The notes below the pieces were generated by a model. The model saw nothing but the letters and a program-made list of their open reading frames with translations. It had not been told where the DNA came from and did no database searches. Position numbers and translations under genes: made by a program. From the NCBI GenBank assembly GCA_016618085.1, contig JABLTG010000075.1, forward strand, positions 29,400 through 93,399: 64,000 bases of DNA. The letters run 5' to 3'. Shown one piece after another: positions 1 through 64,000 of this stretch (position 1 is the stretch's first letter; every line of letters starts with the position of its first letter). The stretch is from Neovahlkampfia damariscottae. Lineage: Eukaryota > Heterolobosea > Selenaionea > Neovahlkampfiida > Neovahlkampfiidae.

Positions 1-1
1 T

Positions 2-1135
2 GCAAACCAACACAATGTCACATATGGTGAACACTTAACTGAAGTTAAAATTCAAAATGTTGCCTATGGGAACCATTTCGTCGTAGACATTTATAACACT
101 CCAATGAGTGCGATTGAAGACGGAGATGAATTTGTCAGAACTATTAATGAAATCGTTTCATTCAACAATGGAACATGCGTCAACAGGTTTTTTCATTTTT
201 TTTTTCACTGAAAAACTTTTAGTAAAATCCATATGTTTGGAAATGAAAAATTAAACCCATACACTGCTTTATTTCTCTTAGCTGAATCACATATCAGTTT
301 CCATACATGGAATGAACACAATTATGTTGCTTTTGATTTATACACTTGTGGAAATAATATCAACACTTATAATGTTTTAGGCATGATTCTTCATTATTTT
401 AAATCAGATAATTATCGTGTAAAACATGTTGTTAGATCTACACTTGAAAACGTTGATACTTCAAAATATCCACACTATAAAAAAGGTGATTTAATGATTA
501 AAGATGCTTCTTTACCAGCTATTATTCACGACTCAAAAGTTATTTCATGGAAAAAAACTAAATTACAAAATGCTCTTTTCTTTGAATCAAAAACACTCGG
601 AAAAGGTCTTCTTGTCAACTCTAATTTACAATACTTGGAAAAATTAAATGAAAAGAATATTTATGTTGTTGATAAAGTAAAAGAATTTGGAGCAAAAAAA
701 ATTCTAATCATTGGAGAAAATGACATGAGTGTTTTAAAATCAGTTATCCAATCAAAACACGAATATGAAAGTTTAGATTTTGTTTATAATGATGAAGAAT
801 TAATCACAGAAACTAAAAAATCAATTCATCATGATTTTGATGCTTGGATGGACACTAAAAAATCAAGAATAATTATTCAAGATACATTCAAGTTTTTAAT
901 GGAATTATCAACAGATTCAAAATATGATTTAATTCTTATTGATGGAATTGAAATTAATAATTCACTTTTAAAATTATTTAAAATCATTAAAGATAATCAT
1001 TTAACTTCAAATGGAAAGATTTTATTAAAATCAATGGAAGAAACTTTAGAACAATCACCTTTAAAAGATATTTTCACAATTACTTATAAATGGATTGACG
1101 CTCCAAAAACACATAACTTTTACACTTTAGAATAA
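2..1135 (+). CDS. AdoMet decarboxylase-spermidine synthase fusion (5' partial)
   Basis: The 5' end lies outside the window. Exons are <2-186 and 223-1135, with a 36-nt intron; 365 residues are visible. The N-terminal ~125 residues match a bacterial-type (SpeD/SpeH) S-adenosylmethionine decarboxylase: the motif LLAESHISFHTW holds the Glu83-Ser84 self-cleavage site that makes the pyruvoyl cofactor, with the conserved His89 and Cys104 (LYTCG). This enzyme makes decarboxylated AdoMet for spermidine synthesis. The remaining ~215 residues resemble spermidine synthase (a block around ESKTLGKGLL), but the nucleotide-binding GGGDGG motif has become IGENDM and the DSSDP loop has become DGIEIN. I therefore infer a working decarboxylase joined to a non-catalytic synthase domain that may act as an allosteric or scaffold module. 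It converges on the related minus-strand gene, and the two overlap by 9 nt. Confidence 0.82.
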
Positions 1136-3650
1136 ATTTTTATGCTGCAAAATATAGAAAATTGAATGTCCTGTTAAATTTGGTGTGTAAAATGCAATAG
1201 TTTTTGTTTTGAAATGTTTCGTTAAAAATTTAGGATATTTTGATTGATGAACTGGAAAATCACCCTCTAAAGTAATATACCCAGAATTCATCAACATTTC
1301 TCCTGTTTTGCTCAAGTGAAACATTTTAATTTTTTCATAAAAATCTTCTGGAATTTCAGATTCATCAGGGATTTCTGAGTCATTGATGATCAAATCATAT
1401 TTCATTTTTTCATCAAGATCTATTATGAATTCATATGAATCTTTGATGATTATTTGAATTTTTTGATGATTAAAGATTTCATCTTGATTTGGGAACAAAT
1501 ATTTTTTTGATAATAGAATCACTTCAGGATCTAATTCAACCAATGTTATTGTATCAATTTTTTTGAACATTTCAGAACGAAATATTTTCGTAATGATTGA
1601 AAGATCACCTCCGAAAATTAATATATTTTTTGGTTTTAGTAATTCAACTTTTGAGTAGATAAAATCTGTATAGTTTTTTCCAGCATTTTCAAAATATTCA
1701 GCCATTCCATTAATAATCATTCCTTTACCTAAAATTGGATTTTGGATCATTAATATTTTGTGATAATCTGATTCTTTCCATTCCAAAATTTTTGTGTTAT
1801 GGAATAATGTTGGATTTGCTGTTGAATAAGCCATAATATCTCCATTTTGAATTTTTGTGTAGAAAGATTCTAATTTCAAAGATTCTCCAAAAAGTTCTTG
1901 GGAGATCTCGAATTTATTACCATTTAATATATCTATAATCATAGGAATTGCATTATAAACAAAAAATTCTGTTGAGTTTGATTTAATTTTCATCAAAACA
2001 CTATTCAAAGATTTCTTTGATTTAATTTCGATTTGAATCTTGTTGAAACTAAAAATATATACTTTTTCTTCTGTATTTGATTCATTAATAATTTCTACTT
2101 TTTGATTTTTCAATGAATTAAAATTAATAATTTCAATCATTTTCTCTTTGAAACTATCTAACTCAAAGTCAATTGATGCATTAAACATTTCAATCGAATA
2201 AATCACATCAGTAGGAAATAATGAATGCTTAACTGTGGAAATTTGATTTCCGAAAGTTAAATTATAACGATTCACTTGATAATTCAAATCAATAGTAGAA
2301 TTCTGTGAATGTTGAAAAAACTCATGAGGCTTCTTAGAGAAAATATAAAAAATTGTATGACCAACATATTCAGGTGTATATACTACTTTAAGTTTTGAAT
2401 TGAATATTTCAATGGAAGGAGGATGTTTAACTTTCTTTGCAAAGTCCTGATAAAATTAGAATATAAATTAAAAATACTCGATCAAAAATATCCTTCACTT
2501 GATCTTCCAACAAACCATATTGAAGCATTATTTTAGCATTTTCTGACATGTGATATTTTGATAATTTTCTAAAAAATTCTTTTTGAAACAATTTTGCCGA
2601 CAACAATATTTCTGGATCCGTTGTGTCCTTCAATTTTTCAATTTTTTGTTTAGTTTTACCATAATTATGAAATCAAAAACTTTATCTTTTTTCATTTCCA
2701 ATACTCTTTTATTTGCATCATCAATGATGATTTCAATTTTTGTATCATTCATCCATTCTTTAAAATCAGAATGAAATATTCTTTTTGATGCTTCAACAAT
2801 CTCCCCATCAATTTCTATAAGAGTTATAGATTCAATATTATTAAAATATGGTGATTTTACAATTGTCTTTAAAATAACTAAATCACCTCCACCTGTTTTG
2901 TGTTTTTAATATTATTTTGAATTGTTTTTTACCAATGATTAGAATTCGTTTTGGTGAATCACTATCAACATACTTCATGAATGCATTTGTATAATTTGTT
3001 AATCTTTCAAAATATTGAGTGATTCCATCCAGTATTAAACCTTTTCCAAGTGTTTTTGATTCAACAAAATGGGCTTGTTGGAATTTAGTTTTTTTCCATT
3101 CAATAATCTTGGTATCATGAAGAATAACAGGTGTAGTGAATCCTCCAGCTATAAAGTCTGTAATTTTGTACTCAGGAGGTGAATTTCCAATATAATTGTA
3201 TGTATAATTTTCTCCAAAGTGTTGGCATAATAATTGAAGTATTGGGTGGATTTTAAATCCTTGAACACCATAAATTGTTAAACTAACTTTAACTTCACCT
3301 TTTTCATTTGATTTTATGATGAGCATTGCATGGATAAAATGAAAAAATGATTTGAAAGTTTGGTTTCCTTCTTTCCCTGAAAATTGTTGAATATTGGTCA
3401 AGATTTTTCCTGAAAAATCTGCTATTTTGAATATGGTTGCATTAAAATTTTCTTCGTTCTTCACAAATGCTTTTGTAGAGTTTGTAAAAAATAATTTAAA
3501 ATGTGCAAATAAAGGGTTGTTTATCTGTGTAAAATGTGGACCAAAAGTTTTGTTTACAACATTGTTTTGTATGTCAACTCTTTCTAAAGGTTGTTGAATT
3601 TGACCATATGTCAGTAAAATGCAATAACAAAGAAAAAAAAGATACTTCAT
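1127..3650 (-). CDS. secreted tandem AdoMetDC/spermidine-synthase-like protein
   Basis: Four exons (3650-2933, 2892-2660, 2627-2478, 2446-1127; introns 40, 32 and 31 nt) give one 806-residue frame. Residues 1-19 form a signal peptide (MKYLFFLCYCILLTYG), followed by several N-glycosylation sequons. The protein then holds two copies, about 20-420 and 422-806, of the same two-domain unit as the facing gene. In copy 1 the decarboxylase part has lost the Glu-Ser cleavage pair and the Cys, but the synthase part keeps GGGD (240-243, split by intron 1) and DTTDP (318-322). Copy 2 has FGGD and a weak DSEIP. So the synthase fold, and possibly its activity, is kept while decarboxylase chemistry is gone. 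A secreted aminopropyltransferase would be unusual; a binding or pseudoenzyme role is the alternative. The start at 3650 is the first Met of the signal peptide. Confidence 0.78.
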
Positions 3651-3730
3651 TCTAATTGGATATTGAGAAAAGGCGTTTTTTTTTATTTGATCCACCCACG
3701 TCAACTGGAATCAGAAGGTTTGACTCTCAA

Positions 3731-6020
3731 ATGAAACAAACAACTATAAACAGTTTTTTCAACCAAAAATCAAATGAGAAAGAATTCACAGAAAATTTAA
3801 AAATATTAGAAAAGTAAATTGTGGTTGAAATTATTTTTAATTTTTTTAAAGTTTTTCACAACATGAATTGTTAAAAGAACTGAGGAAAAAAAGAACAATT
3901 CTTGAAAAAAATTTACTACTCCTGCAAGAAGAAAATGAAAACATTGACGACTCAAGACTAGGCAATATGTTTATTGAGGAAGAAATTATCACAGAAAAAC
4001 CAAAACAAAGAAAAAAAGAAAAAAAACAAGTTGTCACAACAAAAAGACCAAAAAGAAAGAAAATGACCAATTTTTCGTTGATAACTACACCTTATAATTC
4101 AAATCAATCACTTTTATTTCCAAATGAAAACTTTTATTATTTACCAGATGAAAGAGAAACCATTTTATCAAAATTATCCATCATTGAAAGTATTTTATTA
4201 AATTTGAATGAAGAAGAAAATAAATTAGATTTTACAAAAAAAATCCATTATAGAGATGTACAAGAAACAAATTTTGATTATTTTTATCAACTTGAATTAT
4301 CAAAATGTAATGACGAAAAACTAAAAAAAAATGTAGAAGATAATTTTTTAAGTATAAGTCGTCCTTATTTGAAATTATCGATTGCTAAAGATATAATGGA
4401 GAATAAAATATCATTGAACGAGTTTGGTTTGAAGAATGGTGATTTAATACATGTACCATTTTCATTGAGAGAAAAAACAATTGTTGAACAAGAAATGGCA
4501 AAAGAAAATTTTGATTTTTCCTCCATTAAAAAGTAACAATTAAAATTAATTCTCAAATTTAAATAGTTCATTACCAGGAAGAAAAGAAGAAGATTGTATT
4601 TTTTTTTTTAAAGACTACAAAGAATTTGATTGTCAATTTGAACAAATTATTGAATATGATGAAAAATTAGAAAAAAAAGGTATACAAAATTATGTACCTT
4701 TTATTTCACATCGTGAAATCCAATCAAAATTTTCAAGCATGATGGTAATATTTTAAATTTAAAAATTTTTTGAAAATAGCAACAATCATTAATATCGAGA
4801 TTAAAATGGACAGATATTCAATCTTTATATCATACTTCATCCAATTCAATGGAAGGTTGTGTAGTTGATATTAAATTTGATAAACAAAGAAATAATTTGG
4901 TATCCATTTCAACTGGTGAACAGAATAATCTTAAAATTTTTGAAATGAATTCTGGAAAATGTATTGATTTATCAGGACATAAAGAAACTGTTTCTGATGT
5001 TTTTTATTCATTGGATTCTTCTCAAATTGTAACTTCTTCTTTTGATAAAAAAATTAAAACTTGGAACTCTGTCACTGGAGAATTACAAAATACTTTTGAA
5101 AAAAATGAAGATGTAAATGGACATACAAAATCAGTTGTTCTTTTAGCACCTCATTCAAAAAAAAATGTGTTTGGTATGAGTTTATATTTTTAAACTTTTT
5201 AGCATCATCAGCAATGGATGGTCAAATTATTTTATGGGATTTACAAAATAAAAAATTTCTTTGGAATTTAGATTCTGATGATATTGATGAACAACATTAC
5301 TTTTCAGAAATTTATTTTGGTTTCAATGAAACGGAAAATAATTTGTATGGAATTAGAGATTCAAAAAACAATTTAGGTGGATTATTTTGTTGGGACATTG
5401 AATCAAAATTGAATTGGAATTATATTGACAAAGAAAGTATCATTGAAACATTCTCAGTTTCGCCATCAGGAAATTATTTGTCCATTGGATTGAACAATGG
5501 AAAAGCAAGAGTTTTTGATTCTAAAAGTGGAAAATTAATAACAAATATTGATAAACATAGGCATTATGGTTCTGAAGGAGTTACAAAAATATCATTTAGT
5601 CAATGTGAAACTTATCTACAAACTTGTGGAGATGATCGAAAAATTTTTATTTTTGACATTCGAATGCAAGGAAAGTTACTATTTAAATTTGAGCATGATT
5701 TACCATTAATCTCAACTGAAGAAGGTGTTACTAATGCTGATTGGAGTAAGAGTTTAGGAACTACATTGTTGGCATCAAGTGGATCAGATCAAGTTGTTAG
5801 GGTATTCGATATCTGTTCAGGTTCAGAATTAGGAATTTTGGAAGGACACAGTGATAGTAATATTTTTTCTGGTTTAATTTTTATTTCAGCAATTTCTTCT
5901 GTTAGATGGTCTCATGATAATAATTCTATTGCAAGTGGTGGTGATAATTCAATTTTACGTCTTTATTCAACAGACAAAAGTAAGAAACTTGAAAAAGATT
6001 ATCAATTTTACTGGCAATAA
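3731..6020 (+). CDS. PIP-box WD40-repeat protein
   Basis: Six exons (3731-3813, 3852-4532, 4567-4744, 4780-5173, 5203-5856, 5890-6020) give 706 residues. The N-terminus carries a textbook PCNA-interacting peptide, QTTINSFF (residues 3-10), followed by a lysine-rich helical region. From about residue 330 there are WD40 blades (for example FEMNSGKCIDLSGH, DGQIILWD, DQVVRVFDICSG), which make a beta-propeller. A replication- or repair-linked adaptor recruited by PCNA, possibly a CUL4-DDB1 substrate receptor, is inferred; I cannot name the orthologue. The last intron (5857-5889, 33 nt) has no stop and is a multiple of three, so a naive translation inserts 11 foreign residues inside a WD blade; removing it restores the GHSD...SSVRWSHD spacing. 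The next gene starts 184 nt downstream on the same strand. Confidence 0.75.
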
Positions 6021-6154
6021 ATCGATATTTCTCAGATAACGAAATTAATGGGCTAGAAAAAAAAAATTCATTTAACAGTGTTCATAATGCTAAAATAATA
6101 AATTATTCTTCTTCAATAAATTTGCAAAGCGAAATTCTTTATTTAGATTTTCCA

Positions 6155-6161
6155 CCAATAG
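6155..6161 (+). promoter_or_regulatory. CCAAT-type promoter element of the HECT ligase gene
   Basis: CCAATAG lies 43 nt upstream of the ATG at 6205. It matches the CCAAT[C/A]A element found before most genes in this window. A CTTCGCGC sequence, similar to half of an E2F site, lies between it and the start (6189-6196). Confidence 0.45.
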
Positions 6162-6204
6162 GCTTTCAGAAGAAGTTCAACAAAATACTTCGCGCACTTG
6201 AAAA

Positions 6205-9200
6205 ATGAAGATAAAAACGACCAAAAAAGTCAAAGAATTGGTAAAAAAAACTTGAACTATCTAACAGAAATAGGAAGAAAATTTGAAAAAAGTTGAACAA
6301 ACACTTTTAAGTTGCAAAGAAGAAGCAATTTCAAAAGAAATACAAAATATAATGTCCACAACAAAGTGGAAAAAAGGAGACTTATTACAATGGCAAAATG
6401 TTTTAAACAGATTTGATGAAATTTTGGAAAAGTTTTGTAAACAATTTCCGCAAACATTCAAAACAAAAAATGAAAACAATGTAACTGCGGACACCATCAA
6501 ACAAATTTTAAGAATGACTCTTTTGCTTGTTGCTTATAACAGGAACACCGCAAAATATGCTTCTTTAAATTGGGTAGGACTACTTTTAAGTTCAGAAAAA
6601 GAAGATATTGTTTATGATGCTTTACTCTTAATATATACACTTGTAAAGAAAGACAGAAACAATGGAAGTTATATTTTTGATGGTGGTGCAACTAACCAAA
6701 AATTACTCACATTATCATTTGGCTATGGAACAAACTCTTTGGAAACTGTTTGTCAAAAGGAATTGGAAGAAAAAGTTTTTTTTTTTTTTTTTAAATTTGA
6801 AATAGGTTTTAAACAAAGGTTCATCAGTTTTATTTCAATATTATCCAACAGATGGAAAGGAAAAGAATGAAAAAGTTGTTATACAAATTGAAAAAGTTCA
6901 TAAAAATAAAAAAACAGCGCTTCAATGTTTTAAAGAACTTATTGATACTCATAGTATTCCAGAAACCAAAATATTTCATTTATGGAACATAATACGTCAA
7001 GCGTATTCATTTCATTCTTTAGAACAAAGAGCTACTTGGACAAAAATTAGATTTTTAGCTCTCTCTAATTTATGTAAGGATTTAAAAAGTTTCTAAATGA
7101 TTTAGGTTACATGTCCAACACAGCTGCTTTCTTTCAAAGTCAACCAGATTTTATTGATGAAATTACTAGCATTCTAAGACCAGAAAAAGATATTCCAAAG
7201 GATGTACTTGAACATGCTTATAAAGCCCTTGGATCTATTGTTTCCTCAGGTTCTGTTTCAAAATTGGACACTATTCTTTCAAAATTACTTCCAAATGGAA
7301 GTTCATCATATCATGGAGTTTTACCAAGTGTTATTAGAGTGATGGTTAAAAATATTACAGAAACGGATCAAAAAGAAAACACCAAATTTGATTTATATGA
7401 AAGTTTAATCAGTTTTTTGACAGACATGACACCAAATCCTCATGGAGCAAAAGCTTTGAATGACTCTGGACTTTTTATAGAATTATTACCTTTATTAGCT
7501 GTTGGAGGAATAGAAAAATTAAATTCAAAAATTTTAAAAATGTTAGATTCATTCATTAGATCCAGTCGCAATTTAAATATTCAGCCACTTCAAAAACCGT
7601 TATTTGAACATGCAACCAAAATATTTTGCGATTTAGTTTCATATTGTGAAAATAAACTCTCTGAATCTGAAAAAAAAGTAGAAATGAAAGAATTAATCAA
7701 AGAAAACAAAATTAAACTCTTGCAAAACTCAATTAAAATAATCAACACTTTAGTTCAAAAATCAGTAGGAATTGACAGCAGAGATGTTTTAGAAGGAACT
7801 TTATTACAATCAATGAACAAAGTATTTGCAAATCCAAAATTTTATGGAGGTATTTTATTCATGTTGTGTGGATCAAGTTTAGAAGGACTAATCAACAATG
7901 ATCCAACTTGTTTACCAATTGTTTATGAATCAGGAACATTAAAATCAATATTTACAGCATTAGAAATTGGAGTATCATCTTCAGCAGAAATGATTTGCAC
8001 TGTCACTCCACTTATTAGTACATTATGTTTGAATGCAAAAGGATTGGAAGAAGTGAAGAATTTTAATCCATTTCCTTATATTATTAATAATATGCTTGAT
8101 GCAACAGCGAATCATGTTATTGTTTCAGAAGCTAGTCATCTTTTGGGTTCCGATTTAAATGATTTAATGAGACATCATCCGGAATTGGGTGATTTATGTA
8201 TCAAATCTGCAGTTGAAGTTATCTGTTCAGTTTATAACAAAGCTTTAAAAGAAAAATTGAAAGATGGAGAGAAATTAACAAAAGAAGGTGAAGAAATGCA
8301 AATCATCATTCTTCAACTTTTTAAAATTCTTTCATACCTTTTAAAAAATAACGTTAGACAAGGAAAGATATTTTTGAAAGATCAAGGTGTTTCAAAATTA
8401 ATCAAATTTTGTAATTTACCTTTTGGATTCACAAGCATGGTTTCAAATTCGTTGGTTATGGTTTTTAAAGTTCTTTCAACTCATTACTCAAATGATGTTT
8501 TCAAAATTTTGGTTGAGAATATTTCAAACCTCTTGGAAAATATTCCAAAAGCCGAATTACTTCAAGAAAACGATTTTTCAGATAATGAATTAACAAATGT
8601 CCATAATATTTCTTCATATTTGAATTTAGTTTTTAGTTTAGTTACATCAAAGAATGGGCCATTTTTAGCTGATTGGATCAGCTCAAAAGGTAAAGATGTT
8701 TTTCCTGCATTAGGTAAATTGGATGCCGTTATTACTTGGAAGTATGTGTCTCGTATGATTGAAAAAATTGAAGAAGTTGAAAAGAAAAATGAAGAAGAAA
8801 AAAAAGAAAAAAAACAAGGTGAAAAACCATTTGATGCAGTAGCTGAAGTATCAAAAGATAGGACACTAAAAATTTACAAATTCTTCACATCTTCAACTCA
8901 ATTACTCTACAAAACATTAGAGAATGCTATTGCTGGATCAGTTCAAAGATTCAATCGTGATATTGCTCCTGAATCTCAAATAAAAACTATTGCAGTCAAT
9001 TTAGCTTCAAACTTGCAATTTTACTTTAAATTCTATGATGAATTAAAATCTAATGAATTGAAGAAAAAATCATTATTTTGTTTTGAAGTTGTGAGAGTAT
9101 TAAAATCGATTATATTTGATCGTAGAAATTTCACAAATACCTTTATATTAAAACCGTTTGTCAACGATGGAGGATTGGATTCATCATTAAAAATGTTTCA

Positions 9201-12200
9201 TTCTTTATTTTCAGAAGTTAAAGACACTAAAGACAAAAACGTTGAAAAGGCATTAGTTGAATTTGGAAAATTCTACAGATCCCTTGCAGCTGCAAAAACT
9301 TTTGTCACTTCTCATCAAACATCCAGCTTAATGGCTTCAAAAGATGATAAACTTGATCCTATAAAATTTTTAGGAGAAATTCATCAAAAAATAGCTTCAG
9401 CAATCGTCAAAATTTGGAAATCTGAAAATTTGAAAACACAAACAACAGACTTTGTTATTTTGATGATTAATTGTGTTGCTCACATTGTGAAAGGAAAAGA
9501 AGAAGCAAAAAAAAAAAAAGAAGAACCAAAAACAAATTTCATTGTTGATCAATTTGCTCTTGGCCAATTAACAGACATGGGATTTTCTCAAAGAATGGCA
9601 ACAGAAGGTTTAAGAAGATACAGAAATAATTTGTCAATGGCAACTGAATGGATTTTGACATTTCCAGAACTTTCGGATGAAGAAGAAGAAGGTAAAGTGA
9701 AGTCAGAACAAGAAGATGAAAATGATGAAGATGAACTTGCTCTTGCATTAAAAATGTCATTACAAGGTTCTGGAACAACAGTTGAAGAAAATTCTATTGA
9801 AGTCATGAAAAAAGAATCACTTGATTGGGCTCTCAATATTATTGTGGAATCTAATGCTTTTGCTCTTCCTTGTTCTGATTTAATTATCGTTTATGGGACT
9901 TTATCAGAAGAAAACAAACAAGCAGCATTATCCTCAGTTTTAAAGAAAATGAAAGAAAATGAAAAGAATGAAAAAATTCTCTCAAAACTATTGAATTTGG
10001 TCGTTCATTTATTAAAAAAAAGAATTGATATCAATGAAATTCTCTTCCAAGACAAAGATCAAATTTCATCACTCTTATCAATTTTTGATCTATCAAGATC
10101 ATTAGATAATGACAATCAAATTGAAATTGCTCTTTATTCAACACAAATATTTGATTGTTTATCAAAAACTTATGAACCTGATGAATCAGACCAAATTGAA
10201 TTGGAAACGTTTTTGAAGAAAAAAAAAGAATCTGAATTGAGCAAAGATGTTTGTCAAAAATTACTCATTGGATGTCTTAGAATGGTAAAAAATTCAAAAT
10301 TGACAGTTGGTCTTCTTGAATCTGTGATTCGTGTTCTCAGCAATATCACAGTGAATGAAGAAATTGCAAAAGAAGCATTGAATCAACATTTGGTTCAAAA
10401 GATTTTATCTATTCCTTCAAAACTCAAATTCAAAGGATTTTCTAAGTCTGTTGAAATCACAATTCAACATTTATTTGAAGATCAGGTGACACTTTTAAGC
10501 TCAATGGAAAAAAGTATTAAAATGAAATTACCTCAAATTCTTCATTTAAATGGACAAGTTTCACCAAAAAATTATTTGGAACAATTCTCAAAATTTATTT
10601 CAAGAGATGTTGAATTATTCTTTCAAGCAACAAAAAATATGTGTCAACTCAAAGCTGGTGCATTTGAATTAAAAAAGGATTGCAAATATTCTGAAACTAA
10701 AAATAATGAAGCAATGAAAATGATAATCAATTCATTATTAGACTTTTATTTCAAATATCCAGAATCTGTTAAATCAAAGGAGAAAAATGAAGTACAAAAA
10801 TCATTTTATGCAATGGAAAAACATAATGTTATTGCAATACTCGCTCAATACTCAATTGTTTATCAAGAAATTGGAGAGTATATCACTTCCTATGAAAATA
10901 AAGAAATTGAAAAATACAAAGGAGAATCAAAATTTGTATCATATTTGCTTGATCAAGTACTTCCATATCGCAATGTTAGTGTTCAAAAAAAAGAAGATAA
11001 CAGTGAATATGAAAAAAAATCAAAATCAAACTGCAGCAAAATGACATCATTTTTACTCAGTGCTTTATTTCCTGGAAATTACAACATTATATTGAAAGAA
11101 ATTTGTGAAACATTATCAAGAACATCAGAATTAGATCAACCAATTGCTACAATTCATTCAATTTCTGAACTGATTAATTCAATTTTAATGAACAGAAATA
11201 AATCAAAATCAGCAGCAAAAATTGGCAAGGCTATGGTAGAAGCAGGAATAACAAAATCATTTGGTAATGCATTACGTGGATTGGATTTAAATCACCCAGA
11301 TTCTTATTCAGTTTGCGCTTCTATTTTGAGAACATTTGAAATATTATCTAAAGTTACTGGTGGTTCGATTGACGAAAAACATCAAGAAGTAATCGAATTT
11401 GAACTTAATTATGTTCAACAAATTGCAGAATATGAAAGAATTGAAGGTGATCCAAGAAGATTTCGCATCTCCGAAATGCATCAAGCATTAGAAGAGCCTT
11501 CTGATGATGAAGATAATGAAGATGATGAAGACAATGAAGACAATGAAGATGATGAAGAAGAAGAAGAACAAGAGGATGAAGAAATCGACAACATGTCTGA
11601 AGAAGAAGTTGATATTGTTGAAGAGGAAGAACATAATGTTGAAGGTGAAAATGATGAAATGAATACCACAAGATTTGAAAGATCGGAAAATGAAACAGAA
11701 GATTTAACTCATGATCTTTCAGATGAAGAATATGAAACAGTTGAAAATATCTATAGAGATCGTGTTGTTGATGAATACGATGAAGAAGATTATGAAAATG
11801 AATTTGAAAATAGAACAATTGAATTTCCAGAACTCACAAGACTTGCATCTCAAAATGATTCACAATTACCTGGATTCCTTGAAGATTTATTAAATTCTTC
11901 ATCACAAGAAACTCGTATTAGAAGAATTGAAATTGGTCAAAATAACAATATCAGATATGAAGAAGTTGGTGCTGAACCGACAACCACATCCACTACAAGA
12001 CCATCTGAAATGTTTCTAAATTATTTAGATTCAGCTAGTCGAGGAGAAGGAAGAGGAATTGAATTTTCATTCAGATCATTACTTGAAAGAGAAAATAGTA
12101 GAAATAATAATGTCAATAATTCGTCGTTATGTTTAGACAGAGCAATCACTAATTTTGTTAGAAGTGAAACTGGTTCACCAATGAATGAAACCATGAATGA

Positions 12201-15200
12201 GTCAACAACAGAAAGTGATACAATGAATGAATCTCGTGAGGAATCAAATATATTGTCAACAAATGAAGTTGAGCAATTGTTGGATGAAATTACTGAACTC
12301 TCGCATCACATGGACGATGACGAGGAGGATGAAGAAGAAGATGAAGAAGTTGAAGAAGAAGTTGAAGAAAATGAAGAAGATATTCAAGAACAAGAAACAA
12401 ACAATGAAGAAAGAATTGAGCTTGTTGAAACTATTCAACCAAATGGTAATCTTACATCAGAAAATGTTTCCAATCAAACAACACAAGAACCATCAATTGA
12501 TCCTGCTTTTCTTTCAGCTTTACCAGATTCATTGAGACAAGAAGTATTGGCTCAACATATTTCTTCATTAGTATCATTAGCACCAAATGAAAGTGGTGAA
12601 TCAACTATTTCCCAAGAATTTCTTCAAGCGTTGCCAGATAATATCCAACAAGAAGTTTTGGAGCAAGAAAGAATTTTAATACAATCCAGAAGACAAAGTG
12701 AAACTCAATCAAATCAAACAACTGAAACAACAACTCAAAATAATGAAACTTCAAATACGTCTACAACATCAACAGATCAACCTCAAGAACAGGTTCAACA
12801 ACAACAACAAACTATTGTTCCACCAAATCAAGATATGGATGCAGCAAGTTTCATTGCAAGTTTAGATCCAGAATTAAGAGAAGAAATTCTTTTGACATCT
12901 GATGAATCTGTCTTACGAACTCTTCCTCCTGATATGGTCGCAGAAGCTTTAAATCTTCGTCAAAACTATTTTCCTACAAGAAGAAGACATCCACTTGCAC
13001 ACACAAGACAAGAAACATCAACCACTGAAAACTCAAAAAAAGTTCACTTGCCAGCAAACAAAAAAGGTACACAAATTTTGGATGAAAAAGAAATTGTCGA
13101 AATTATTCGTTTATTATATGTTTCTGCTTCACATTTAAAACAAATTCAAAAAATCATGACAAATAACTGTTATCATGAAGAAGTACGTCTACAAGTAGTT
13201 TCAAAGTTATTATCAATTCTACAATATTTGAATGTTCCTGAAGTTATTCCAAAAGAATTGGAAAGAATAATTTCAACAGAAATGTTTGGAACTCAATCAC
13301 AATCTTCAATTACTTTAGATGAAAAAAAAAAAGAAATTCCAAAAACAGTAACAAAAAGAGTCTTAGAACTTTTAAATTACCTTTGTGTGAACAATGCTCG
13401 AGTAATCGTCAATATTTTAAAATCAGAAGAAACTAAACTATCTTCTGATAAATTATTGAATTTATTATCATCTAAATACATCACTGAAAACAATGATCTT
13501 TTACAAGATTATTTACAACTTTTGAATGTATGTCTAAAATTTTTAGTTTCTTCTGTTGAACAATATTCAATAGAAGTATTAAATATTGAAAAAAAATTCA
13601 ATAATGCAACTGAAGAACTTGAGAAAATGACGGAGAAAAATCAAAAAGAAAAAGAAACAGAAATTACAACAAAATTAACAAATGTAAAAAATGAATTGAC
13701 AAAATATAAAGAAGGACACAAAAAAGTTGTTGAAAATATGAAATCATTTTCAACTGAATCAACCATTAAAACATTGGTCAATATTTTAGTTCAAGAATCA
13801 TGCACTGAAAAATCATCCAAATATTCAATTTCAATATTAACATCAATTGCTTCATTAAATGAAAGTAGAAAATTAATTATTGAAGAATTAAGTCAAGCAA
13901 CATTATTACAATCAAAAGAAGTTGTTTATGGATTTAAAAAAATTGATAAAATTGAGTCAGTTGCATTTGAACAAACAAAAAAAGAAATGAAATTAAGTCG
14001 TATTTTAGAAACTTATTCTACTGTTTTATCAACATTGTCAAATGAAGAAAAAGAAAAACAAAATATTCTAAAAGAAGACTCATTAGATTTTGTTTGGAAT
14101 GTTCTCCAAAATTATGTTGAATTAGGTGAAAAAGAAATGGATTCTTCAAATTCAAATTCAACATCTTCAGTTTTAACTGCAACTATTTTACCTTTACTTC
14201 AAAGTTATTTCTGTTTTCAATTAGGTTTTCAATCTAACACATCAACACAATCAACTCAAGATGAATCACAACTTCTTTCACCAAGATTTATGAATTCACA
14301 AACATTTGAGTTAAAGAAATTTGAAAAATTTTTAGAATCAAATAGAAAAATTATCAATGGTATTATTAGATCAAAAACTGAGTTATTGAATTCAACATTT
14401 TCAATTTTAACAAAATATCCAAAATTCTTAGATTTTGATAATAAAAGAGGATGGTTTAGAGAGAAATTAAGAATTGAAGAAGAAGAAAATTCATATGGAG
14501 ATGTCAGATTGACAGTCAGAAGAGAACATATTTTTGTTGATTCATTTGTCAACTTTAGAAAGAGAATACCTGAAGAATTAAAAGGAACATTATCTGTTAA
14601 ATTTCAAGGTGAAGAAGGAGTTGATGCTGGTGGTTTAACAAGAGAATGGTTTTTATTATTATCAAAAGCAATGTTTGATCAAAATTATGGTTTATTCATT
14701 CAATCACCTGATAAACCAACATTTCAACCAAATCCACTTTCTTATGTAAACAATGAACATCTTTCATATTTTCAATTTATTGGAAGAGTTATAGCAATGG
14801 CTATTTTTAATGAAAAACATATTGAATGTTATTTTACAAGACCATTTTATAGACATATTCTTGGTATTCCATGTACATATCATGATATTGAAAATGTTGA
14901 TCAAGAATTATATAGAAATTTAAAATGGATGTTGGAAAATGATGTTACCAATATTATATTTCAATCATTTACAGCAGAAACAATTGAATTTGGTGAAAAA
15001 AAAACGATTGAGTTAAAAGAAAATGGTTCAAATATATTTGTTACAAATGAAAATAAAGAAGAATATATAAATCTATTCACACAAATGAAAATGACAACAT
15101 CAATTAAACAACAATTAAAATCATTTTTAGAAGGTTTTTATGATATCATTCCAAAAAAATTAATTTCAATTTTTAATGAAAATGAATTGGAATTATTGAT

Positions 15201-15570
15201 TTCTGGTTTACCTGAAATTGATTTTGATGATTTAGAAAAAAATACTGAATATCATGGTTATGGAAAAAAAGATCAAATTATTATTTCTTTTTGGAAAGTT
15301 ATTAAATCATTTTCAAAAAATCAAAAAGCATTATTTGTTCAATTTTTTACTGGAACTTCAAAGGTACCAATTGGTGGTTTCAAAGATTTAGTTGGAATGT
15401 CAGGTCTTCAAAAATTCAATATTCACAAAGCTCATGATACAAATCGTTTACCTTCAGCTCATACATGTTTTAATCAATTAGATTTACCAGCTTATGAATC
15501 TGAAGAAATTTTAAGACAAAAATTACTTTTAGCAATTCATGAAGGAAGTGAAGGATTTGGTTTTGTTTAA
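6205..15570 (+). CDS. HUWE1: HUWE1-like HECT E3 ubiquitin ligase
   Basis: Exons 6205-6240, 6274-6774, 6806-7073 and 7106-15570 give 3,089 residues. The N-terminus follows the HUWE1/Tom1 DUF908-DUF913 armadillo region (pattern MKIKTTKKVKEL then QWQNVLNRFDEIL). Next come a UBA domain (about 1081-1121, LTDMGFS), a UIM (about 1143, ELALALKMS), two long acidic Glu/Asp runs (about 1733-1775 and 2003-2035), and three ubiquitin-binding UBM-type motifs with the DPAFLSALPDSLRQEVL pattern (about 2065-2220). The C-terminal ~350 residues are a HECT domain with the catalytic Cys at residue 3056 (SAHTCFNQLDLP, codon 15466-15468). HUWE1/Tom1 ligases ubiquitinate nuclear and ribosome-related substrates. I saw no WWE or BH3 region. 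Nearly all introns lie in the first 900 nt. Confidence 0.93.
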
Positions 15571-15600
15571 AATAAATTTTAAGTTTTATATAAATCATTT

Positions 15601-17409
15601 TTATTTTTTCTCAGACAACATATCTTCAAAATAAGGTGATAAAATGAACCTTGAAAATGAATCTTGCATTATTCCATTTTTCAATTCCAATACAATTTTT
15701 TCAAATAATGAATCATTAAAATTTTCTATTTCATATTCTTTTCTAATTTTATTTTTCACACTGTTTGAGATATTAATTTCCTTCAAAGAATTTTCTTCAA
15801 AAAATTCATCAATAATTATTTTGCATATTTCTTTTCTTTTAAATTCATTTGTCTCTTCAACATATTCATCAACAGATTCTAAAAATAAAGCATTTTCTAA
15901 TGAATACTCTGATGCTAAATATAATTTAAAAAATTGAAAATATCTTTGATTTGCATAAATATCTAAATAATTAAATTCCATTATTGATTTCTTTTTTTTT
16001 ATTTCTTTGATATCCTTCTTTCTTTTATTCATATGAAGAAATAAATTCGAAATTGATTGACTTTTTAATAATTTTTTACTTCCAGTATCTTTAGTGAATA
16101 AATTTGAAAATGATCTATTTTTTTTTATCGTTTTTTCTTCTTCAACTTCTTCTTCATCTTCATTATCTGATAAACATTGATCAATTGTTGGTGACTCTTC
16201 ACCTAATTTTCTAGCCGATGATAGATCACTCTTTGAATTATTCGTATCTCGATTTGAAGATGGTGATGTTTCATCCCCAAAATCTAATTCGTTTTCGAAT
16301 AAACCAGATATTTTTAAACTAGCAATTGAATATTTTCTTTTATTTTCTGTTTGCACAACGTTTACATTCTCAGAAAAATACTGATTGAATTTTAATTCAT
16401 CAGCAAAATTTGGTGAGTTCAATTCCTCCTCTGCTAATATATTTTCTTTGTTTTTGTTAATTTCTTCGTTTGGTGTTGGTGTCATATTTGGTGTTGGAGT
16501 TGAATAAGATGATGTATTGTTATAAGAAAAATCGTCATCTTCACCCAGCGGAGTCAAAATCACATTTGGAGATTTCATTTCTAAATTCTCTTTTCTTTGG
16601 TCTTCCATTTTCTTAATACGTCTTGAATTGAATCTACCAAAATCATTATTTAAACCACCTATAAAACCATCTTCTTCATTAAAATCATCAATTTTCTCTT
16701 CATCAATTTTTTGTTCATATTTTTCATTTTTGGCTCTTGAATCTGAAAAAGGTGTTTTGATATGAATTGAAGTTCTTGTATTTAAATTTCTTGATTTTTC
16801 TGTGTTATTAAATGGACTTTTAATATGAATTGAAGTTCTTCCTTGAATATTTCTTTTTTTAATTTTAGAAGTTCCATCTGGATCAATCACTAATCTCCAA
16901 AAATTAATACTTGAATTTGAATCTATAGGTGAAATATAGTAATTTACAATTTCAAAGTTTTGAATCATGAAAGTAGCATTTCTATTCAATACTCCAAAAA
17001 ATTCGAAAAATTCTTGTTGTTGATCATAAATGACTGAAAATTTATGTGGAAAAAAATTTTGATTAAAATTCATTTCATGAGTTATTAATATAGGTATCGT
17101 ATTCAGTTGCATTAAACTTTTGTAGGATTTTTCAAAATCATTCAAAATGTTCATTCTTTTTTTTTCAGTTTTTTTTTTTTTTTTTTACCCAGTTTTTGAT
17201 TGTATATCCTTGATGAACAAAAGTACAATATTTTTGTTTTCTTTATTGAGTTGTTTGATAGTTTCATCTTTTGTTGTTTTAACTTTTGAGATTTTTTGAA
17301 GGTTTATTAGGTCTACAGGTATTTCTGTTTCTGTAGCAGATTGTCTTTTACATTCTTGAAACTTTCTGGTGGATTTCGTATCATTTATTTCGTTAACCGT
17401 CTGCTGCAT
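15601..17409 (-). CDS. RGS-domain protein with thioredoxin-like N-terminus
   Basis: Exons 17409-17189 and 17155-15601 (33-nt intron) give 591 residues. About residues 465-590 form a regulator-of-G-protein-signalling domain (FKLYLASEYSLENALFLESV ... DSFSRFILSPYFEDML), which speeds GTP hydrolysis by G-alpha subunits. The N-terminal ~50-190 region has the beta-alpha layout of AhpC/TSA-2 thioredoxin-like domains (IVLLFIKDI ... IPILITHE ... FSVIYDQQQEFFEFFGVL), but the redox Cys positions are absent, so it would be a non-catalytic fold; this assignment is tentative. Between them is a low-complexity Ser/Asn/Glu linker that includes a duplicated RTSIHIKxPF motif, perhaps a phosphorylation or docking site. 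A sense-strand CCAATCA lies 27 nt upstream of the start. Confidence 0.78.
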
Positions 17410-17436
17410 TGAAAAAAACGATTTAAAACGATGATT

Positions 17437-17443
17437 TGATTGG
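17437..17443 (-). promoter_or_regulatory. CCAATCA promoter element of the RGS gene
   Basis: TGATTGG on the plus strand reads CCAATCA on the minus strand, 27 nt upstream of the minus-strand ATG at 17409. It matches the recurring element of this window. Confidence 0.5.
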
Positions 17444-17628
17444 TCAATACCACCGGAAAAATAAGTCGGTCAATCAAACAGCCTTCGAATTCAAGAACAA
17501 ATATTTAATGCCTCATTTTGGATGGCAATTAGATCCTTGAATTTATCGAGAAATTAGCAGACTAACACAATTGCAAAAAAAGTTGTAATATATAATTTGT
17601 GAACAAAGATGGTTTGAAGATTTTATTT

Positions 17629-19096
17629 TCAAGTTTCAATGATATCTTGAACATCTAAATACTCTTCTTTTTCATCATAACTATCATCATCAACTACATC
17701 ATCAATGGTAGCATTTTGATATTGTTGATATTCAGATATTAAATCAATCACATTTGATTCAACTTCAGAAAATTCTGTTTCATCCATTCCTTCATCTGTA
17801 TATGAATGTAAAAATGCTTTTTTTGATAACATGAGTGAAAATTGATTTGTAATTCTTTTAAACATATCTTGAATTGATGTTGTATTTCCAATAAAAGTTC
17901 CACTCATATTCATTCCTTTTGGAGCTACATCACAAACTAATTGAAAGAATAAACAATTATTTTGTAATACCTGAACTCTTGATGTTATGCGGAATCCAAT
18001 CAACAAAATTTGGTGAATTCTTTGATTGAATGTTCTTCATTTGTTCATCAATTAGTTTTGTTGGTATATTTCCTCTAAACATTGCAGAAGCAGCTAAATA
18101 TTTTCCTTTTTTTGGATCAACAGCAGCCATCATATTATCAGGTGAAAACATTTGTTGTGTCAATTCAGAAACTGTGAGATTTTCATAATCTTTTGTTGTA
18201 TTTGAAGTCAAAGGTGCTGATCCAACCAAGAAAAAGTGTAACCTTTGAAATGGCACAAGATTAACTGCTAATTTTCTTAAATCTTGGTTCAATTGACCTG
18301 GAAATCTTAAACATGAAGTAACACCTGACATAACTGATGTGACTAATTTATTTAAATCTGAAAATTTTGGACTTTGAATTCTCAAAGTATTTTGACAAAT
18401 TGAGTACAAAGCTTCATTGTCAATACAAAAAACTTCATTTGCATTTTCAATCAATTGATGAGTTGAAAGTACTGTATTGTAAGGCTCTACTACGGTATCT
18501 GAGACTTTGGGTGATGGAAAAACTGAAAATGTCATTAACATTCCTATTGAAGAATTTTAGTAATTTGTTGATTTACTATCTGGATATTCTTCTCTTAATT
18601 TTGATAAAATTAATGTACCAAGACCTGAACCTGTACCTCCTCCTAATGAATGTGATAATTGAAATCCTTGAAGACTTTCACAAAGTTCTGCTTCTTTTCT
18701 CAAACCATCCATGATATCATCAATGAGTTCAGATCCTTCTGTATAAAATCCTTTTGCCCAATTGTTACCAGCACCATCTGTGCTATTAATAAAACTTGAT
18801 GGTTTGTATAATTTTCCATATTTTTGACCACGAATTGAATCTAAAGTCCCTGGTTCTAGATCAACAAATACTGAACGAGGTACATATCTTCCTTTTTTGG
18901 TTTCAGTGAAATAGACATTAAGACCATCTTTTAAGACATCATTTTTTCCTTTGTAATTTCCAACTTGATCAATAGCATGTTCTTCTGAAATTACTTCCCA
19001 GAATTTAGATCCAATTTGATTTCCTGCTTGACCTAAGAATATGATTAATAGTTGATATTATTGATTACCTGCTTGAACGCATACTATTTCTCTCAT
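17629..19096 (-). CDS. divergent beta-tubulin
   Basis: Exons 19096-19069, 19032-18577, 18543-17971 and 17936-17629 (introns 36, 33 and 34 nt) give 454 residues. The protein starts [10 protein letters not shown], with intron 1 splitting the conserved [10 protein letters not shown] motif, and keeps the GTP-binding GGGTGSG loop, [38 protein letters not shown] and an acidic tail. It is therefore beta-tubulin of the alpha/beta dimer. Several normally invariant stretches are changed: an inserted, altered segment after residue 40 ([14 protein letters not shown] instead of the usual DSDLQLERINVYY type), and VGSAPLTS in place of MPGFAPLTS. Such divergence is known for mitosis-specific or non-flagellar tubulins in some amoebae, so a spindle-specialised paralogue is a reasonable inference. 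No CCAAT element sits close to this start. Confidence 0.93.
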
Positions 19097-61571: not shown

Positions 61572-62583
61572 ATGGACAAGCAAAACTTGCAAAGCACTTT
61601 ACCAAATTCGACGCTTCCAAAAACAGATGATTTTATTGTGTCTCAACAAACACAAGGTTCAAGTTCAAATCCATCTCAAACTCAAGGAAGCTTTGGACAA
61701 AAGTTTCAATTTCCTTATAACGGTCAAAATCAAACATCACCAGGAACAACTGGCTTAAAACCAGGCCAAACTCAAACTTTAAACCAACAACCTTTGACCC
61801 AACAACAATTACAAGGTCACTTCACTACTCAAACTGTTAATATGTCCAAACAACAAACTTATAATCCACAAAATACTGAAGGTGGAAATCAAAATGAAGA
61901 TGTCGATTCTGACGGAGAAAAAGAAGCACCAAAAAAAGCAAGAAGAAGAAAAATCAAAATTGAGTACATCAAAGATAAAAGTAAAAGACATATCACTTTT
62001 TCAAAAGTAAGTTCAAAAAATCAACAAAATTTAACTTTATCAACAGAGAAAAGGTGGTATCATGAAAAAAGTTTATGAATTAAGTACTTTAACTGGTACA
62101 CAAGCTCTTTTACTCGTTGCTTCTGAAACAGGTCATGTTTATACTTTTGCTACACCAAAGTAAGTTGTCAGTTATTTTTTATATTAAATTATCAATAGAT
62201 TACAACCTTTAATTACTAAAATCGAAGGTAAAAATCTTATTCAAGCATGTCTTAATGCACCTGATAATGCACCTGAAGATGAAGAAGGTGAAGAAGAAGA
62301 AGAAGATGATGAACAACCAATGATGGGAGATTTAAAAGGAAATCCAATGAATCAACAACAAATGTTACAACAATTTCAACAACAACAACAACAATTACAA
62401 CAACAACAATTGCAACAACAATTACAACAACAACAACAAATGCAACAACAACAACAACAATACATGGGTCAACAATCAGGTTCTAATCAAACAAATATGA
62501 ATGCTTTCAATCCACCTGTTATGAGAATCAGTATGAATCAACAAGGTCAAAATAAAATGAATCAATACAATCAAGATAATTAA
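61572..62583 (+). CDS. SRF-type MADS-box transcription factor
   Basis: Exons 61572-62006, 62047-62159 and 62199-62583 (introns 40 and 39 nt) give 310 residues. A Gln/Asn/Thr-rich N-terminus of ~115 residues leads into the MADS domain (about 122-180): RRRKIKIEYIKDKSKRHITF, then RKGGIMKKVYELSTLTGTQA and LLVASETGHVYTFATPKLQP. These are the type I SRF/MCM1 residues that bind CArG-type DNA. The SAM extension and an acidic run (EDEEGEEEEEDDE) follow, then a polyglutamine tract encoded by CAA repeats (about 62344-62460). SRF factors control actin and growth genes. The stop codon TAA shares its bases with the facing DPH5 stop. Confidence 0.95.
62344..62463 (+). repeat. CAA-triplet repeat encoding polyglutamine
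   Basis: About 40 codons, mostly CAA with scattered TTA, ATG and TTG, give a Gln-rich tract in the MADS-box protein. The interruptions suggest an old, stabilised repeat rather than a fresh expansion. Confidence 0.8.
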
Positions 62584-63582
62584 ATGTTTTTATAATAAGC
62601 TAAAATTTCTTCTTCTATAATGTGTAAACTTCCACAAATGACTAAAGAATGTAAAGGTTCGCCAAAATCAACTTTTAAAAGTTCTTCAATTGTACCAGCT
62701 ACAATTTTTTGATCTGGAGCTCCAATGCGAGCTGTTCCTATAGCCATAGTTTTCTTTGAAATTACATTTTCTTTTCTTGTTTCTTCAATTTCTAAAAGTT
62801 GTTCAAGTGCTGTATTAATTGTCATGAATCTATAATTTATTATTATTTATTGATTAAATTTACCTTGGAGGTTCATAAATTTTTTTTCCTTTTAAAAGAT
62901 TTTCTTCACTTTGTTCTTTCACTTTGATATCAAGTAAACCTTTGAAAAATTAAGTAAGATTTTAAATTGAATATTTACATCTATTAAGATTTTAGAAAAT
63001 ACTAATCTTACAATGTGTGTAAGTCCAATGTTAAATTTCCTTTAATGTAGTTGTAGAATGAATCTGGTTTCCAAGTTTCTGTGAAAAATACAATAGAAAC
63101 TGTTTGTCCAAAACGATAAAGTTGTAATCCACATGCTCCAATTGCATTCCTGAACTCAATTATTTCCAAATTTTTCTTCTTACATTATAGATGCGTTATG
63201 GACAACTTCAACACCAATTTCTAACAAATAAATAAATAAGGAATCATATGTTATTACTCAATGATTTTGCTCTAACCATTATATCAGCATGTGTAGTAGC
63301 TCCAAAAGGATCACCAACAACAAGCACTCCAACATTTTTTTTTGCTGACTTTTCAATGATTTTTTCATCACATTCTGACTCAATTAATTCTCTATCAGCT
63401 AATACGATTTCTATTTTTCTGCCTAATTGTTTTGAATAAAATTCTTCTAATTTTTCTTTTCCAACTGTTAAAATAGAAGTATAATGTTCAAGATAAAGAA
63501 TATCACATTTATCAACTGCTTCAAGCCCTTTTAAAGTTATATCTTTTTCATCTCCTAATCCTAATCCAATTAAATAAAGCAT
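62580..63582 (-). CDS. DPH5: diphthine methyl ester synthase DPH5
   Basis: Six exons are proposed: 63582-63258, 63220-63184, 63149-63012, 62980-62979, 62939-62864 and 62829-62580, giving 275 residues. Family motifs are unmistakable: [94 protein letters not shown] and [16 protein letters not shown]5 methylates the diphthamide precursor on elongation factor 2, so the organism should make diphthamide. Exon 4 would be 2 nt long; it is required for the invariant HTLCLLDIKV segment. The stop overlaps that of the MADS gene. An antisense CCAATCA is at 63636-63642. Confidence 0.93.
62979..62980 (-). other. putative 2-nt microexon of DPH5
   Basis: Between a 31-nt intron (63011-62981) and a 39-nt intron (62978-62940), both with GTAAG/GTAAA donors and AG acceptors, lies a single AT. 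Adding it completes a Leu and a Cys codon, giving the HTLC-LLDIK stretch that is conserved in the family. Every one-intron alternative tried puts a stop in the frame. Confidence 0.6.
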
Positions 63583-63823: not shown

Positions 63824-64000
63824 ATGAGCAATAATGATCGATGCAATGAAAAATATATCACCAGTAAAAAAAACAGAGAACAGTACGGAGTTTGTAATTC
63901 AACACTCAAACGATGGGCAAATGAAGGAAAAATTAGTAGTATCCGAACAATCGGAAACAAAAGGCTCTATGGATGTGATGACATTAGAAGAGTCTTTGGA
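63824..64000 (+). mobile_element. tnpA: IS607-family serine recombinase (TnpA), N-terminal part
   Basis: The frame opens at ATG 63824, after an in-frame TAG at 63812-63814, and is still open at the window end (59 codons). It carries the MerR-like helix-turn-helix that precedes the serine-resolvase domain in IS607 transposases: QYGVCNSTLKRWANEGKI followed by SSIRTIGNKRLYGCDDIRRV. IS607 elements insert without terminal inverted repeats and often carry a tnpB gene; in eukaryotes they are mostly known in amoebae and fungi and in giant viruses. The catalytic resolvase part would lie beyond the window, so completeness cannot be judged. No intron is needed in the visible part, unlike most neighbours. 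Confidence 0.85.

Follow-up and report, generated by a model that had tools for sequence, protein, structure and literature searches.

A probable two-nucleotide exon in the DPH5 gene of Neovahlkampfia damariscottae, with further predicted very small exons in the same genome

The DPH5 locus and its neighbours

The window, i.e. the whole 64,000-nt stretch of DNA that was analysed, contains near its end a DPH5 gene on the minus strand (62580-63582), to which a gene finder that had learned codon use, splice-site weights and intron length solely from this genome assigned six exons (Table 1). The whole protein scores 318.4 bits against NCBIfam TIGR00522 (dph5; cut-off 114.3), which identifies it as a diphthine synthase, and, the AT site between exons 3 and 5 apart, conservation extends over 275 residues of an intact gene. 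A search of the genome with DPH5 gave four matches, all of them at this locus. Among the relatives of the protein (at least 120 listed), the top places are taken by the EukProt record P0001, a crayfish record, chytrids and Balamuthia.

The gene beside DPH5, on the plus strand, is glutamine-rich and has introns of 40 and 39 nt; from a reading of its translation, it looks like an SRF/MCM1-type MADS-box factor. The contig ends where the window ends, 419 bases upstream of the DPH5 start codon, and an open frame at this end contains a helix-turn-helix of the MerR type (22.2 bits against Pfam MerR_1, cut-off 21.6). This frame matches the NCBIfam IS607 transposase family weakly (20.5 bits, far under the cut-off), BldC and SoxR being weak too, and is possibly the start of an IS607-type transposase.

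Table 1 Predicted features of the DPH5 region and of the genes with very small exons or abutting introns.
Feature	Position or locus	Strand	Length	Content and basis
Glutamine-rich gene	61572..62583	+		introns of 40 and 39 nt
DPH5 exon 6	62580..62829	−	250 nt	stop codon inside; gene model
DPH5 intron 5	62830..62863	−	34 nt	gene model
DPH5 exon 5	62864..62939	−	76 nt	..GT TTA CTT GAT ATC AAA GTG.. (GTTTACTT); gene model and enumeration
DPH5 intron 4	62940..62978	−	39 nt	GTAAAT..AAAG; splice-site percentiles
DPH5 exon 4	62979..62980	−	2 nt	AT; single open, in-frame solution of 20
DPH5 intron 3	62981..63011	−	31 nt	GTAAGA..ATAG; splice-site percentiles
DPH5 exon 3	63012..63149	−	138 nt	3' end CAC ACA TT (CACACATT); gene model and splicing enumeration
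DPH5 intron 2	63150..63183	−	34 nt	gene model
DPH5 exon 2	63184..63220	−	37 nt	gene model
DPH5 intron 1	63221..63257	−	37 nt	gene model
DPH5 exon 1	63258..63582	−	325 nt	start codon inside; gene model and sequence
Open frame, MerR-type	63828..64000	+		contig end
PTGES2-like, exon TT	L016		2 nt	continuous in 12 of 12 aligned relatives, picked from 120
AASS, exon AT	C250		2 nt	KTMMRGTIRY vs HTLLRGTLRY; junction gap-free, 2-residue gap a few residues upstream
Rab, exon GTG	L020		3 nt	WDCGGEDR vs WDTAGQER, gap-free
Oxysterol-binding protein, exon GAATG	L020		5 nt	encodes GM of RPGMD, as in ORP8
Abutting introns	L020, C279:1-10000	−	35 + 38 nt	AG directly followed by GT
Abutting introns	L031-L033, C307:100001-130000	+	32 + 33 nt	AG directly followed by GT
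Rab7-like gene, tiny-exon chain	L023, C22:197200-197900		8, 7, 18 nt	introns of 30, 43, 37 and 33 nt

Splicing solutions at the AT dinucleotide

All solutions with GT/GC-AG borders, one to three introns and at least 15 nt per intron were enumerated for the 119-nt segment between the codons for LTLDLHT and DIKVK. Twenty were obtained (nine with one intron, nine with two and two with three), and a single one of these, the pair of introns of 31 and 39 nt with AT kept between them, is open and in frame into the conserved LDIKVK; the AT then supplies the third base of Leu TTA and the first base of Cys TGT, and skipping it would break the frame. The original prediction had located the dinucleotide and the two introns exactly, and its argument that the AT must stay if HTLCLLDIKV is to be encoded, one-intron solutions failing, agrees with the enumeration, whereby none of the nine one-intron solutions is both open and in frame. 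Its description of this segment as invariant is nearly correct: HTLCLLDIKV is exact in 11 of 12 aligned relatives (picked out of 120 listed, P0001 not counted), whereas the twelfth has HTLCLLDIRV, and PDB 3i4t has HTLVLLDIKV, with V for C.

Both introns have standard spliceosomal borders. Ranked among 239 introns of the genome, the donor and acceptor stand at the 95th and 60th percentiles for intron 3 and at the 69th and 79th for intron 4, in keeping with the good GT-AG borders first described. The gene finder, trained without homology, arrives at the same structure as the enumeration; the model loses 21.1 score units when the first donor is barred and 10.6 when the second is barred, and both resulting models drop conserved residues around HTLCLLDIKV.

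The sizes of the two introns are typical of this genome, in which 252 of the 287 introns called in the first 243 kb (328 of 372 after 50 kb was added) are of 25-45 nt; from a reading of 35 of the other 44, many of these seem to have arisen where separate genes were fused in error and the space between them was called as an intron. Only one of the 287 calls falls at 67-75 nt, and a single 72-nt intron would be an outlier here. An origin of neighbouring introns by tandem duplication found no support in the 11 pairs at tiny exons, whose members resemble each other no more than introns paired at random do (a fraction of 0.15-1.0 of random pairs reaches the same score; 0.35 for DPH5). Unusually strong splice sites were not seen beside the tiny exons (8 pairs), and the predicted RNA fold of the 100-nt DPH5 region is no better than that of shuffles (z 0.11). 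A 10-mer shared by both DPH5 introns, TAAAATCTTA, and the complementarity of the intron 3 donor with intron 4 were considered and, in view of this fold result, dropped.

Predicted very small exons elsewhere in the genome

Pairs of short introns less than 6 nt apart, for which the original prediction had proposed a genome-wide search, were looked for in a 286.7-kb sample of the 20.4-Mb genome (307 contigs), made up of this contig in full and parts of 14 others, masked bases uncounted. Eight such gaps were called, namely six internal exons of 2, 2, 2, 3, 4 and 5 nt and two abutting intron pairs (0 nt). Relatives back four of the six exons without a gap (DPH5, PTGES2-like, oxysterol-binding protein and Rab) and the AASS exon less firmly; the gene with the 4-nt exon (L014) has no Pfam match. 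For the PTGES2-like, AASS and Rab genes, the model with the tiny exon is ahead of the best alternative, with none or a shifted exon, by only about 3.5-6 units. A possible alternative for AASS has a 51-nt intron and a 6-residue insertion, and that for the PTGES2-like gene a 10-residue replacement or insertion, not present in the aligned relatives. The best named relatives of the latter gene are Heterolobosea, and the tree places the query in no starred set.

In the two abutting pairs the AG runs straight into a GT, as at a zero-nucleotide recursive splice site, whereas DPH5 has AG-AT-GT. Simulated at random, a single long intron carries AG|GT in the appropriate middle part in only about 0.4% of cases, and each of the two cases could be one long intron instead of a pair.

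Somewhat larger small exons were also called, among them an 11-nt exon of bystin, which fits relatives, and a 19-nt exon of a Rab gene (Ras family). Exons of 10 and 11 nt in two further loci (L010 and L022) were excluded from the counts for a neighbouring intron of 110 or 117 nt; the one in L022 joins an upstream stretch to an apparent SRP54 start and is probably an artefact. Among eight small Ras loci, which were picked for gaps in their matches and so are not a random sample, three have called exons of at most 13 nt: L023 (7 nt, then 18 nt), L026 (13 nt) and L028 (13 nt). L023 presents a chain of tiny exons, the 7- and 18-nt exons of which were called by the gene finder and the 8-nt exon read by eye; the latter reading gives RLIMMQIWDTAGQERF, as in Rab7 relatives. 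Outside the window, on contig C280 (positions ~1-17,700), genes were joined by the gene finder across oddly long gaps (L007 and L006). Stretches such as tttaatatattttaatat recur in the AT-rich spacers there, and the usual short introns seem to be missing from the genes; the region is possibly an insertion of foreign or viral DNA.

The 286.7 kb contain 201 internal exons that have an intron of 25-45 nt on either side, with 8 of 0-5 nt, 3 of 6-24 nt, 6 of 25-49 nt, 26 of 50-99 nt and 158 longer. Scaled to 20.4 Mb, the six exons of 1-5 nt correspond to about 430 or, with DPH5 left out as the reason for looking, five correspond to about 360 genome-wide (Poisson range roughly 120-830). For the first 243 kb, an exponential distribution with the observed mean predicts 3.4 exons of 0-5 nt and about 23 of 6-49 nt, where 6 and 5, respectively, were seen; the number of tiny exons is about what random intron placement gives, and the departure is the lack of exons of 6-49 nt. 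The 0-5-nt class makes up 8 of the 17 exons of at most 49 nt (p = 0.0004 under an even distribution of sizes). When DPH5 is left out it makes up 7 of 16 (p = 0.0015), and when the 0-nt pairs are left out as well, 5 of 14 (p = 0.010); these p values are to be read with small numbers and with size cut-offs set after inspection of the data in mind. Detection bias was rejected as an explanation for the scarcity at 6-24 nt, since simulated recall was flat across sizes: 194 of 240 at 0-5 nt, 610 of 760 at 6-24 nt and 167 of 200 at 30-50 nt.

Interpretation of the AT site and known systems

We assign a probability of about 0.88 to the reading whereby the AT is a constitutive 2-nt exon with an ordinary intron on either side (31 and 39 nt), the two being removed one at a time under intron definition. 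As judged from the genomic sequence, this is the sole canonical pattern that would yield HTLCLLDIKV, and both introns are usual in size and sites for this genome.

An unlikely alternative, although the one that fares best, is that a single 72-nt intron has been disrupted by a sequencing or assembly indel, with AG-AT-GT arising in mid-intron by chance. The closeness of the contig end speaks for it, but introns near 72 nt are rare here, and the error would have to coincide with an infrequent pattern. When 200,000 single introns of 72 nt were simulated with the outer ends of the DPH5 pair, an AG-[A/G]T-GT encoding Leu-Cys and splitting the intron into two of 25-45 nt occurred in 0.11%, any stop-free, frame-mending exon of 2 or 5 nt in 0.73%, and a Leu-Cys solution with sites scoring as high as the real ones in 0.001%. 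The recurrence of the same arrangement in other conserved genes also counts against an error, as do the controls for spurious calls. In error-free simulations (267.5 and 274.2 kb), 335 and 373 internal exons were called; none of these 708 was of at most 5 nt, and 3 and 1 were of 6-24 nt. With simulated indels, 26 produced one spurious exon of at most 5 nt, 90 produced none and 446 in 274 kb produced eight, so that indels could account for the observed tiny exons only at about 2 per kb.

The original prediction had also offered a nested twin intron (stwintron), in which an inner intron interrupts a splice signal of the outer one and the whole block is excised. Two short intron-like units do adjoin at this site, and stwintrons are described in fungi (PMC5639578, PMC12403724); however, none of the 21 nested two-step solutions enumerated with canonical borders keeps the frame, so that no such arrangement of an inner intron within an outer splice element, both wholly removed, fits DPH5. 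The twin intron finds no support because nested splicing excises one continuous block, and the sole workable block has AA..AG borders; we consider this reading very improbable.

That block, taken as one non-canonical 70-nt intron, is the sole single excision with any borders that restores the conserved protein. AA-AG is not a usual pair of spliceosomal borders, and such an intron would not account for the presence, at just this site, of two typical introns with canonical borders, making this, too, a most unlikely explanation. Equally doubtful is imperfect splicing or decay of DPH5 with no clean product, to which the absence of the conserved segment from P0001 might point, given that the gene is otherwise intact and has all its genome matches at one locus.

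P0001, the sole outside gene model, is apparently of the same gene and organism and speaks against the 2-nt exon in that it lacks the AT; it skips 26 conserved residues after HTL and has a different end, and in a second fault it takes a short piece of the last exon for an intron. We take the omission to be an annotation error, as expected from a pipeline unable to place a 2-nt exon and an instance of how annotation pipelines misread such genes; P0001, being a gene model, is no evidence for the AT.

Under the constitutive 2-nt exon, each intron would be recognised across itself, as a unit of about 25-45 nt. Two splicing complexes presumably cannot sit side by side on 2 nt, so one intron would be removed first and the other after, the exon formed by the first step then flanking the second intron when it is recognised; the order would be immaterial to the mRNA. 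Since further exons of 2-5 nt and abutting introns are called in the genome, tiny exons appear to be tolerated by its splicing in general and not in DPH5 alone, and exon size seems to have no lower bound here.

The closest known cases are the constitutive 1-nt exons of plant APC11 and VPS55, which are reported with RT-PCR support (PMC4674806, PMC8831610). Like these, the DPH5 exon would be far below exon-definition size, essential for the frame, missed by annotation and probably spliced stepwise. The claim that it would be among the smallest exons known is thus fair, but it is no record. The plant exons are proven by RT-PCR and conserved over land plants, whereas that of DPH5 is deduced from sequence and has 2 nt; in APC11 the exon sits inside an annotated intron of 422 nt, 333 nt from its start, in contrast to introns of 31 and 39 nt here. 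Other reported cases include a 4-nt exon in MPC1 (PMC9929638), a 3-bp exon in Drosophila homothorax (PMC7392893), a 1-bp exon in placozoan mitochondrial cox1 (PMC5436844) and 2,398 microexons of at most 15 nt across 10 plant species (PMC8831610). The DPH5 exon resembles animal and plant microexons in its few nucleotides and flanking GT-AG introns; however, many animal microexons are regulated cassette exons, whereas the AT shows no sign of regulation.

With fungal stwintrons (PMC5639578, PMC9024468, PMC12403724), DPH5 would share two short adjoining introns and sequential removal by intron definition, but stwintrons leave nothing after full removal, whereas DPH5 would keep 2 nt. At zero-nucleotide recursive sites, the acceptor is directly followed by a donor (PMC13149111); the abutting pairs found here (65 and 73 nt in total) resemble miniatures of these, which are described in very long introns, whereas DPH5 would retain 2 nt. 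In the open-access literature, with subscription papers mostly outside the search and other wording possible, we found no report of a 2-nt exon nor, among the papers listed on protists or short-intron genomes, anything similar to the tiny exons seen here. The DPH5 exon would be of a kind already known from the 1-base exons of plants; the apparent frequency in one compact genome would be new.

More broadly, and with about even odds, the genome may use pure intron definition with units of about 25-45 nt and no minimum exon size, zero included. It would then hold hundreds of exons of at most 5 nt in a two-peaked size distribution, 0-5 nt being tolerated as a stepwise-spliced double intron and 6-49 nt avoided, and some genes, such as the Rab7-like L023, would carry chains of tiny exons. 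How small an exon may become under intron-paired splicing has so far been studied through isolated and uncommon examples; if the 2-5-nt exons of this compact genome do perhaps run to hundreds, between introns of near-constant size, both this limit and the order of intron removal would become directly testable.

Among the splicing components of the genome, U1-like snRNA genes with CACTTACCT near the 5' end gave 4 matches, the best of 68.1 bits, just below the 69.5 of the family. An SF1-type gene is present, and the FF-domain genes may include Prp40, which is reported to be required for microexon splicing in C. elegans (PMC8378409).
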